Shown in pieces: positions 12,405 to 16,682 of a stretch of DNA of 64,000 nucleotides. Within the stretch, counting starts at the first letter, position 1. The number at the start of each line of letters is the position of its first letter. The position numbers and the translations under genes were made by a program. The notes below the pieces were generated by a model, which saw only the letters and a program-made list of their open reading frames with translations, was not told the origin of the DNA and made no database searches. Source of the stretch: Heterotrichella gracilis (Eukaryota; Sar; Xanthophyceae; Tribonematales; Xanthonemataceae); NCBI GenBank assembly GCA_032358255.1, contig JAULBX010012544.1:37815-101814 (forward strand), read 5' to 3'.

Positions 12405-12752
12405 ATGATGAACATTAAAAATCACGTACAATTAGTTGGACGTTTAGGTGCAAACCCGGAAGTAAAAGTGTTAGAGAATGGAAACAAGTTAGCGAAGTTT
12501 AACCTCGCCGTTTCAGAAACCTACAAAACCAAATCAGGTGAAAAAGTAACAGATGTGCAATGGCACTCAATTGTTGCCTGGGGAAATTTAGCAGGCATTG
12601 CCGAGCAGATCCTTGCAAAAGGCACACAGGTTGCAATTGACGGTAAATTATTCAAACGTAATTACACTACTAAAGAAGGTGAGAAGCGATCGAGCACAGA
12701 GATTGTTGCCAATGAATTATTTGTCACACAAAAAGCGGTTTTGGCTGCTTAG
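12405..12752 (+). CDS. ssb: Single-stranded DNA-binding protein, short form
   Basis: A 115-residue OB-fold SSB. Family blocks are HVQLVGRLGANPEVK at the start, KLAKFNLAVSETY, VQWHSIVAWGNLAGIAEQILAKGTQVAIDGKL in the middle, and STEIVANELFVTQ. It ends directly after the OB fold and lacks the linker and acidic DDDxPF tip by which canonical SSB recruits repair and replication proteins. Binds single-stranded DNA as an oligomer by family knowledge. Start may be ATG 12405 or the next codon 12408. A second tail-less SSB follows 181 bases downstream. Confidence 0.92.
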   Translation: MMNIKNHVQLVGRLGANPEVKVLENGNKLAKFNLAVSETYKTKSGEKVTDVQWHSIVAWGNLAGIAEQILAKGTQVAIDGKLFKRNYTTKEGEKRSSTEIVANELFVTQKAVLAA

Positions 12753-12933: not shown

Positions 12934-13266
12934 ATGAATCCAATAAACAAAGTACAATTAACTGGAAACTTAGGAAGAGATCCTGAGATCAAAACGTTTG
13001 AGAATGGCAAATTGGCAAAATTCTCATTAGCAACAACCGAAGAATATACGACTCGCGGCGGTGATAAAACCTCTAATACCCATTGGCACAACATAGTTGC
13101 CTGGGGTAAGGTGGCCGATCACATTGAAGCTGAATTTAAAAAAGGAAGTTTTGTAAGTATTTCAGGCAAACTGGTTAGCCGCAGTTACAATGACAAAAAC
13201 GGAGATAAAAAATACATCACCGAAGTGGTAGCCAATGAAGCTGGTATTGTTCAAAAACAGGCCTAA
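12934..13266 (+). CDS. ssb: Single-stranded DNA-binding protein, short form, second copy
   Basis: A 110-residue OB-fold SSB with NKVQLTGNLGRDPEIK, KLAKFSLATTEEYTT, THWHNIVAWGKVADHIEAEFKKGSFVSISGKLVSRSY and YITEVVANEAGIV. As in the upstream copy, the C-terminal linker and acidic tip are absent. The two proteins are clearly paralogous but well diverged, so the duplication is not recent. A full-length housekeeping SSB is expected elsewhere in the genome, which would make these accessory SSBs. Both lie close to RadC, but a joint role is only inference. Confidence 0.92.
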   Translation: MNPINKVQLTGNLGRDPEIKTFENGKLAKFSLATTEEYTTRGGDKTSNTHWHNIVAWGKVADHIEAEFKKGSFVSISGKLVSRSYNDKNGDKKYITEVVANEAGIVQKQA

Positions 13267-15592: not shown

Positions 15593-15619
15593 TAAGGTAT
15601 CACAATTTGTGATACCTTA
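15593..15619. promoter_or_regulatory. Palindrome P1 of the ORF6N locus
   Basis: 13-base arms around one central T: TAAGGTATCACAA-T-TTGTGATACCTTA. It lies 17 bases upstream of the ATG of decayed copy 1. The 47 bases from the palindrome through ATGG are identical at P1, P2 and P3. Confidence 0.9.
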
Positions 15620-15636
15620 TTAAACCCAGTAATATC

Positions 15637-15841
15637 ATGGTGCATAGGCAATTTATATCATTAATTCCGACCGAAAAGATCATTCATGAGAAATTCGTTT
15701 TTTATGATGAAAGAGTCATGTTGGATAAACATTCTTCAGAATTGCAGAATGTTGAAAACACAGCTTTGAGACAAGTTGTTCCTAGACGTTTTATTAATTT
15801 TTAAAATGCTGAAATAGAGTAAATAAAAGTAATTTTTAACC
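15637..15841 (+). pseudogene. Decayed ORF6N gene copy 1 (N-terminal fragment, open for 55 codons)
   Basis: The copy begins at the same distance (44 bases) from its palindrome as the intact gene. The frame from 15637 encodes a 55-residue fragment (MVHRQFISLIPTEKIIHEKF onwards) ending at TAA 15802-15804. Compared with the intact protein, the segment NLDLFPPDFMFVL is largely lost, and the similarity stops at the GAAATAGAG that precedes the internal palindrome of the intact gene. A short peptide could still be made from the intact leader; otherwise this is a relic. Confidence 0.8.
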
Positions 15842-15868
15842 TAAGGTATCACAATTTGTGATACCTTA
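15842..15868. promoter_or_regulatory. Palindrome P2 of the ORF6N locus
   Basis: Identical to P1 and P3; 249 bases after P1. It sits where the internal palindrome of an intact ORF6N gene would be relative to copy 1. Confidence 0.9.
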
Positions 15869-15885
15869 TTAAACCCAGTAATATC

Positions 15886-16089
15886 ATGGCGCGCAGACAG
15901 TTTATATTATTAATTCCAAAGAAAAGATCATACATGAGATTTGTCTGTTACGTGATGAAAAGGTCATGTTGTAAATACTTTTAACGGAAATGTATGGTGA
16001 GAAGAACAGAGTCTTGAAACAATTTGTTCGTAGTCGTTTTATTAATTTTTCAAATGCTGAAATAGAGTAAACAAAAGTAATTTTTAACC
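15886..16089 (+). pseudogene. Decayed ORF6N gene copy 2 (frameshifted)
   Basis: Starts ATGGCGCGCAGACAGTTTAT, one base different from the intact copy over the same 20. A one-base loss in the codons for the PTEK region shifts the frame, and TAA follows soon after. Further down it is close to the intact gene (GTGATGAAAAGGTCATGTTG) and then shares with copy 1 the same derived deletion and tail, ending GAAATAGAGTAAACAAAAG. Copies 1 and 2 therefore descend from one another after the deletion. Confidence 0.85.
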
Positions 16090-16116
16090 TAAGGTATCAC
16101 AATTTGTGATACCTTA
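16090..16116. promoter_or_regulatory. Palindrome P3, upstream of the intact ORF6N gene
   Basis: Identical to P1 and P2; 248 bases after P2 and 17 bases before the ATG. The position fits an operator over the promoter or leader. A partial match with changed centre and flanks lies inside the gene at 16344-16368. Confidence 0.9.
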
Positions 16117-16133
16117 TTAAACCCAGTAATATC

Positions 16134-16682
16134 ATGGCACGCAGACAGTTTATATCAATAATTCCGACCGAAAAAATTATTCGTCAAATTTTTCTGTTAC
16201 GTGATGAAAAGGTCATGTTGGATATACATTTAGCGGAATTATATGGTGTGGAGAACAGAGCTTTGAAACAAGGGGTTCGTAGGAATTTAGATCTGTTTCC
16301 TCCCGATTTTATGTTTGTACTAACTAACAAAGAAATAGAGCTCATGGTATCACAAAATGTGATACCTTCCAAACAATCTTTGGGAGGCGCTAATCCATAT
16401 GTATTTACAGAGGCTGGTGTGGCCATGCTTTCAAGTGTTTTGAAAAGTAAACGAGCCAAGGAAATGAATATTGCCATTATGCGGGCATTTGTTGCTTTGA
16501 GAAAGTTATTATTGGGTAATTCTGAATGGCGCTTAGAAATAGAACGGATCAAGAAAAAATTAACAAATCAAGATAAAAACATTGAATTGGTCTTTCAGTA
16601 TTTGGATGAATTGATCGAGAAAAAGGAAAATAACAAACCCCGGGTTCAAATTGGGTATAAAGTATCCAAGAAAACAAAATAA
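16134..16682 (+). CDS. ORF6N domain-containing DNA-binding protein
   Basis: A 182-residue protein with the ORF6N domain at about residues 13-105 (EKIIRQIFLLRDEKVMLDIHLAELYGVENRALKQGVRRNLDLFPPDFMF, then the motif M71-V-S-Q-N-V-I-P-S79 and YVFTEAGVAMLSSVLKS). The C-terminal half is a charged helix of coiled-coil character ending in a basic GYKVSKKTK. The domain is found in phage antirepressor-like and free-standing bacterial proteins and is thought to bind DNA. The codons for MVSQNVIPS form a palindrome nearly identical to the three upstream palindromes. Two decayed copies precede it. No phage genes are nearby. Target of binding is unknown; autoregulation through P1-P3 is inference. Confidence 0.92.
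   Translation: MARRQFISIIPTEKIIRQIFLLRDEKVMLDIHLAELYGVENRALKQGVRRNLDLFPPDFMFVLTNKEIELMVSQNVIPSKQSLGGANPYVFTEAGVAMLSSVLKSKRAKEMNIAIMRAFVALRKLLLGNSEWRLEIERIKKKLTNQDKNIELVFQYLDELIEKKENNKPRVQIGYKVSKKTK
16344..16368. repeat. Internal palindrome P4 inside the ORF6N coding sequence
   Basis: The core is GGTATCACA-AAA-TGTGATACC, against GGTATCACA-ATT-TGTGATACC at P1-P3; 22 of 25 positions agree. It is in frame and encodes residues 71-79. It lies 253 bases after P3, matching the 248-249 base spacing of the upstream palindromes. Confidence 0.9.

Follow-up and report, generated by a model that had tools for sequence, protein, structure and literature searches.

Palindromic operators that lie partly inside coding sequence are found at lac O2 and gal OI, and these offer the comparison for a repressor that regulates its own expression. 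Palindromic DNA within open reading frames has also been described in two other settings. PARCEL elements are tandem 25-residue palindromic amphipathic repeats that occur in open reading frames without assigned function (PMC2996958). Rickettsia palindromic elements (RPEs) are about 150 bp long and are found in unrelated genes (PMC10969869). The accessible portions of the open-access literature on ORF6N, Bro-N, intragenic operators and autorepression contained no description of an intragenic palindrome or of a recognition code in these families.

The locus studied here lies in a window of 64,000 nucleotides, the term denoting the whole stretch of DNA that was analysed. The window resembles a piece of a Bacteroidota chromosome, and the assembly that contains it (68.5 Mb in 903 contigs) is far too big for a single bacterium. 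It carries a gene of the ORF6N domain family, the product of which scores 95.4 bits against PF10543, where the curated cut-off is 27.8 (Table 1). An earlier note on this DNA had reported the palindrome GGTATCACA-N3-TGTGATACC in four copies, three upstream of the ORF6N gene and one inside it, and this was confirmed (0.01 copies expected from shuffles). The string GGTATCACANNNTGTGATACC is found exactly at 15596-15616, 15845-15865, 16093-16113 and 16346-16366, and the upstream copies extend to 27-nt palindromes (TAAGGTATCACAATTTGTGATACCTTA). In the window's assembly, TATCACA-N3-TGTGATA occurs at the four places in the window and at one other. The two tandem units are 249 and 248 nt long, each opening with an upstream palindrome that is followed by a decayed 5′ gene part. 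The 47 nt comprising palindrome, leader and ATG are identical at 47/47 positions across all three units and the remainder of the units matches at only 155/202, 126/226 and 140/226 positions, which means that palindrome and leader have outlasted the coding part. Gln46 (numbered by hand count along the translation of the open reading frame) corresponds to domain position 28; the helix string of the window protein is NRALKQGV, and it is paired with TCAC, which is present in all four window palindromes. Elsewhere in the window, neighbouring genes at 12405-12752 and 12934-13266 resemble those for single-stranded-DNA-binding proteins, as judged from their translations.

Table 1. Positions of the ORF6N gene, its palindromes and the tandem units in the window
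Feature	Position	Strand	Basis or remark
ORF6N gene, 182 aa	16134..16682	+	ORF list; PF10543 E 2.6e-27
Internal palindrome, 25 bp, encodes MVSQNVIPS	16344..16368	.	within ORF6N gene
Gln46 codon (domain position 28); across the family, palindrome base -4 can be predicted from this residue	16269..16271	+	
Upstream palindrome P3	16090..16116	.	ATG 17 nt beyond
Upstream palindrome P2	15842..15868	.	opens decayed unit 2
Upstream palindrome P1	15593..15619	.	opens decayed unit 1
Tandem unit 1: palindrome, leader, ATG and decayed ORF6N 5′ part	15593..15841	+	
Tandem unit 2: palindrome, leader, ATG and ORF6N 5′ part, decayed, out of frame	15842..16089	+	

The internal palindrome is a feature of the family. 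ORF6N genes were collected from a named set (32 loci from named genome contigs and four of those genomes), from a Pedobacter-phylum sample (395 genomes, 117 with the family, from which the best loci and 100 more stretches were taken and not every hit), from a Desulfobacteraceae-phylum sample (247 genomes, 66 with the family, the best places being used as loci) and from plasmids and phages. In the first set of 167 full-domain genes, from which identical domains had been removed, a palindrome score of at least 10 was reached by 122 genes and by 1.2% of 5010 synonymous-codon shuffles, and the axis falls at domain codon 55-56 in 104 of those 122 genes. The largest set comprised 237 unique ORF6N genes, 231 of which have a palindrome of this 25-bp type in the same loop of the domain; the genes are kin, so that raw counts across the family are not independent. 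The site was found in 29/29 full-domain genes among the best-hit loci of the Desulfobacteraceae-phylum sample, a count that excludes two such loci with stops in the domain, and in 12/12 loci from ten plasmids and two phage scaffolds, the plasmids representing six phyla (Bacteroidota, Pseudomonadota, Campylobacterota, Spirochaetota, Bacillota and Fusobacteriota). The arms vary widely between genes (consensus TTGAGGTCRCAAWTTGYGACCTCAA) yet stay paired: among the 159/167 genes with a score of at least 7, pairing is at least 90% at distances 2-12 from the axis, 78% at distance 13 and about 50% at 14-15. Such paired arms that are free in sequence, together with the frequency of near-perfect copies, are what would be seen if strand switching at imperfect palindromes perfected arms that have no function. 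This mutational origin is very unlikely, as pairing stops sharply at 12-13 nt and 10/11 pairs are reached in 186/215 ORF6N domains but in just 2.0% of 1427 windows in other open frames. A hypervariable cassette was also considered and was dropped, since the similarity of palindromes tracks that of their flanks.

Several further observations were made at these loci. L273 and L274, from the Desulfobacteraceae-phylum sample, have ORF6N domains with three unlike palindromes in frame and in tandem, 39 nt apart. Several partial ORF6N matches (in the Desulfobacteraceae-phylum list; L275-L287) end just past the palindrome in a manner that resembles a break or frame shift; truncation of genes at the palindrome is suggested by this and is not claimed, as a frameshift in the loop would look alike. 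Two very small plasmids of Segatella copri, 2955 and 4140 bp in size (L232, L233), have one annotated gene each for replication and ORF6N and no others, in a gene table that may be incomplete. At five loci (L090, L097, L155, L224 and L237) an ORF6N gene, or a short ORF6N-like open reading frame, sits beside apparent type I restriction-modification genes, which we take to be hsdM and hsdS; at L237, subunit S and Fic are annotated.

What is conserved at this site is the symmetry of the DNA, neither the peptide nor an RNA hairpin. Among 149 genes with a score of at least 8, the palindrome is read in one frame in 139 (as RSQIVTS) and in another frame in 10 (as VTNCDHL). The DNA is alike and the peptides in the two frames are unrelated, and it is therefore the DNA symmetry that is conserved and not the peptide. 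The earlier note had tied the site to a conserved peptide motif; this tie does not hold, given that the same DNA is read in the other frame in the NCDHL/NCDRF genes. Silent positions behave in the same way: in the threonine codons of the right arm, the third base complements its pairing partner in 87/97 cases (expected fraction 0.57, relatedness having been left in this test), the codon being ACC in 68/68 cases opposite G, ACA in 10/10 opposite T and ACT in 9/19 opposite A. The transcript could fold into a stem of 11 bp closed by a loop of 3 nt, and a hairpin of this kind might affect translation or decay of the mRNA. This explanation was rejected and is extremely improbable, because G.U pairs are not preferred on the coding strand: arm mismatches there show no excess of G.T (33) over A.C (45) in 198 genes, nor did they in an earlier set (12 versus 23). 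Copies of the palindrome also exist outside the gene, and a protein residue tracks a palindrome base, neither of which fits a hairpin in the message. At core-selected sites outside but near ORF6N matches the trend is the reverse (G.T 25, A.C 17), the coding strand being undefined at such places.

A single base of the palindrome can be predicted from a single residue of the protein in nearly all genes. In 184 genes, protein columns outside the loop were scanned for covariation with the palindrome sequence after removal of overall divergence, and columns 28, 24 and 25 ranked highest (partial r 0.33, 0.28 and 0.21), compared with best values of 0.09, 0.10, 0.19 and 0.24 for four fake sites elsewhere in the gene. 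The three columns are spaced i, i+1, i+4, which is one face of a helix, and lie within ETKRLNEQVKRN. Among 186 genes with a single site, glutamine at position 28 goes with A at base -4 in 75/75, glutamate with G in 65/65, lysine with C in 17/17 (TTCC) and arginine with C in 24/27; another residue is present at position 28 in 2/186. When any internal site is counted, residue 28 predicts base -4 in 198/201 genes, 9/210 genes having been left out, either for lack of a site or for a different amino acid at position 28. In the three genes that deviate (L123, L157 and L169) the left half-site is TGAC, and their right half-site, read by eye, is TGCC, which fits the code. In six genes that have two sites of unlike type and Q, E or R at this position (L240, L271, L155, L265, L102 and L097) the code fits the better palindrome in five, the two palindromes of L097 being equally good. 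The pairs Gln-A, Arg/Lys-G and Glu-C are all familiar contacts.

On a tree of 201 genes, which was built from 61 columns with those of the loop and helix excluded and is weakly resolved, so that the change counts may be inflated, parsimony gives 62 changes of residue 28 and 56 of base -4. Shuffled residue labels require a mean of 93.9 changes compared with 62, which means that the signal is captured by the tree in part only; 197/201 tips are concordant with the code. The specificity of the protein, as computed, matches its own site in the 198/201 genes and also in 22/22 sister pairs that differ at residue 28, in each of which base -4 follows (two of the pairs are Arg/Lys, for which no change is expected). 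It could be proposed that residue 28 touches residues of the loop, with the DNA palindrome a by-product of their codons, and in the main frame base +4 does set Val or Ala in the loop. Coupling at the protein level nevertheless has a very small probability: the code is also obeyed when the palindrome is read in the second frame and so specifies other residues, in 18/18 Q/E genes with a TC core (12 E-G and 6 Q-A, with zero exceptions), and silent bases follow their pairing partner. The conserved palindrome, the constraint on DNA and the residue-to-base code are all established by computation. The proposal made at the outset, in which codons of the gene itself make up the DNA site that its protein recognises, is supported by this code. 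The link suggested between motif and operator is not supported in that form: the residue coupled to the site is encoded about 28 codons before it and not in the peptide motif.

Palindromes of the family are also found around the genes. In the set of 167, 40 genes have a total of 59 sites upstream and 13 genes have 21 downstream, where shuffled flanks gave 4 upstream, and some of the flanking sites sit in neighbouring ORF6N genes. It had been expected that upstream palindromes would match their own gene better than other genes, and as an average this stood, with a mean of 17.68/25 against 16.12 when permuted (38 genes, p 0.0006); gene by gene the match is clear in about a third, the own gene ranking in the top decile for 13/38 and below it for 25/38. 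When the initial 167 genes were tested in a comparable way, p was 0.006 with near sites and 0.038 with all of them. By base -4 alone the match is weak, holding in 20/35 genes (15.9 expected, p 0.08) and at 23/46 sites (17.4 expected, p 0.047). The idea that ORF6N genes sharing a genome regulate one another was rejected, since upstream sites were no more similar to those genes than to random ones (24 upstream sites; similarity 16.83 versus 17.75 at random, p 0.96). Upstream and internal sites showed no trade-off overall (p 0.28; p 0.065 for the 17 genes with strong upstream sites), and of the 7 genes in that scan with at most 7 internal pairs, two (L011 and L014) have an upstream site. Flanking palindromes, both upstream and downstream, are often of other loop types and sometimes form mixed arrays (L167, L245, L269). 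A fixed array pitch of 34 bp was found at L167 only, with spacings from 26 upward elsewhere, and was dropped as a general feature.

Across the 395 Pedobacter-phylum genomes, the pattern GGTCRCAAWTTGYGACC, which covers one palindrome group and is silent on the other types, was found at 57 sites in 44 genomes (counted by hand), and a control pattern at none. Of these sites, 42 fall within ORF6N genes and 9 no more than 300 nt away from such a gene, 1 belongs to a partial copy and 5 lie elsewhere (in G394, G103, G381, G288 and G396), which places a target-like site in, beside or in the remains of an ORF6N gene in 52/57 cases. The sites in G381 and G288 have a few ORF6N-like codons alongside, as judged by eye. 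Copies that surround ORF6N genes in such numbers (59 upstream and 21 downstream sites), arrays of unlike palindrome types, and the presence of at least two internal copies in 22/237 genes, with three in frame in L273 and L274, could all be produced by a mobile palindromic element, that is, a REP- or RPE-like hairpin of 25-27 bp inserting in and around ORF6N genes, with the protein as its helper or mere host. We consider this unlikely. The internal site occupies the same loop in the six named phyla and in the Desulfobacteraceae-phylum sample, its similarity tracks that of its flanks, and an insert is not expected to show a residue-to-base code. Searches elsewhere found nothing closely related to the window protein in viral contigs, no match in E. 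coli for two family-like probes, and no convincing sequence relative in the PDB (best E 0.26); a pRha search matched 7/148 genomes, for the most part where ORF6N had already been located.

Palindromes are also found in Bro-N genes. A Bro-N subfamily with the motif SIPSPKAEPF has a palindrome at domain nt 147-151, with at least 9/11 pairs in 29/29 unique full-length matches (14.9% of synonymous shuffles reach 9) and 10 pairs in 14/29 (1.7% of shuffles); its centre, by eye, is CAAWTTG in 20/29, and it too is read in two frames, in 26 and 3 genes. The place of the palindrome at these loci (L304, L325-L345, L298, L308 and L310-L315) is comparable to that in ORF6N. Phage Bro-N genes show a weaker palindrome. 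In twelve of them, domain nt 85-115 have a mean of 8.25/11 pairs compared with 6.50 when shuffled (largest of 300 shuffles 7.25), for genes hand-picked from 40 listed of 1023 records and a stretch chosen after an earlier look; one of these genes (L360) has 5 pairs only. Seven Bro-N loci (L303, L305, L307, L309, L314, L316 and L317), presumably DinD-like, lack the palindrome and reach 6-8/11 pairs in the open frame.

Taken together, the conserved palindrome, the constraint on DNA and the residue-to-base code suggest that the ORF6N protein probably binds the 25-bp palindrome inside its own gene. It would act as a site-specific DNA-binding protein whose target lies about 56 codons into its own domain and sometimes also before the start codon. 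Two subunits of a dimer would occupy the two half-sites, and the spacing suggests a helix at domain positions 23-30 through which the inner half-site would be read, with position 28 contacting the base pair 4 from the centre such that Gln would read A, Glu would pair with G.C, and Arg or Lys would read the G of C.G. Binding at the internal site, and at upstream copies where these are present, would probably repress or limit transcription of the gene, by a roadblock or by occlusion of the promoter; that autoregulation proceeds through this binding we judge to be about evenly balanced. A nearby upstream site is present in only 40/237 genes, which means that in most of them any effect would have to come from the internal site. 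For a subset that includes the window gene and the related L011, L014 and L015, it is plausible that the upstream palindromes are autoregulatory operators, and in the window the three upstream sites, identical and carried on decayed copies of the gene, could form an operator array. The tandem units of the window would also be compatible with the handle for recombination between gene copies that the earlier note suggested. A simple reader of half-sites does not account for the arms at -7 to -12, which drift freely in sequence yet remain paired. Some region of the protein that drifts in step with bases 7-12 may read them, or the pairing itself may matter through fold-back of the DNA. It is possible, if rather more doubtful, that each Bro-N/ORF6N gene is self-addressed, co-evolution of residue and base keeping the address matched to its protein through many changes, and that foreign addresses in the flanks are the targets of rival members, the family then providing naturally orthogonal regulators whose code can be read; arrays of foreign addresses might in that case serve mutual repression or exclusion between mobile genes.

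If binding to the internal site is right, a large and little-studied family of DNA-binding proteins has its target written in each gene, and the binding sites of many uncharacterised regulators could be read from sequence alone by means of a simple and directly testable protein-DNA recognition code. The site would be a rare stretch of DNA that doubles as codons and as the binding site of its own product, and it would provide a handle on the role of ORF6N/Bro-N genes, some of which lie beside restriction-modification genes or in phages.

Compared with what is described for the ORF6N and Bro-N families (PF10543 and PF02498), the window gene is a member of PF10543, to which the intragenic palindrome and the code are added features. 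The site is like PARCEL in being palindromic DNA within coding sequence with a wide and patchy distribution, and differs in that ORF6N genes usually have one site of 25 bp, in a DNA-binding domain (PMC2996958). It shares with RPEs the presence of in-frame palindromic DNA inside genes, but is 25 bp long and nearly confined to one family in the GGTCRCAAWTTGYGACC search (PMC10969869). Assignment to RPEs or MITEs was accordingly rejected, the site being 25 bp and only 5/57 pattern sites lying away from recognisable ORF6N. In contrast to lac O2 and gal OI, the ORF6N site is part of the very sequence that encodes the DNA-binding domain, at a fixed loop and across phyla, while its sequence changes.
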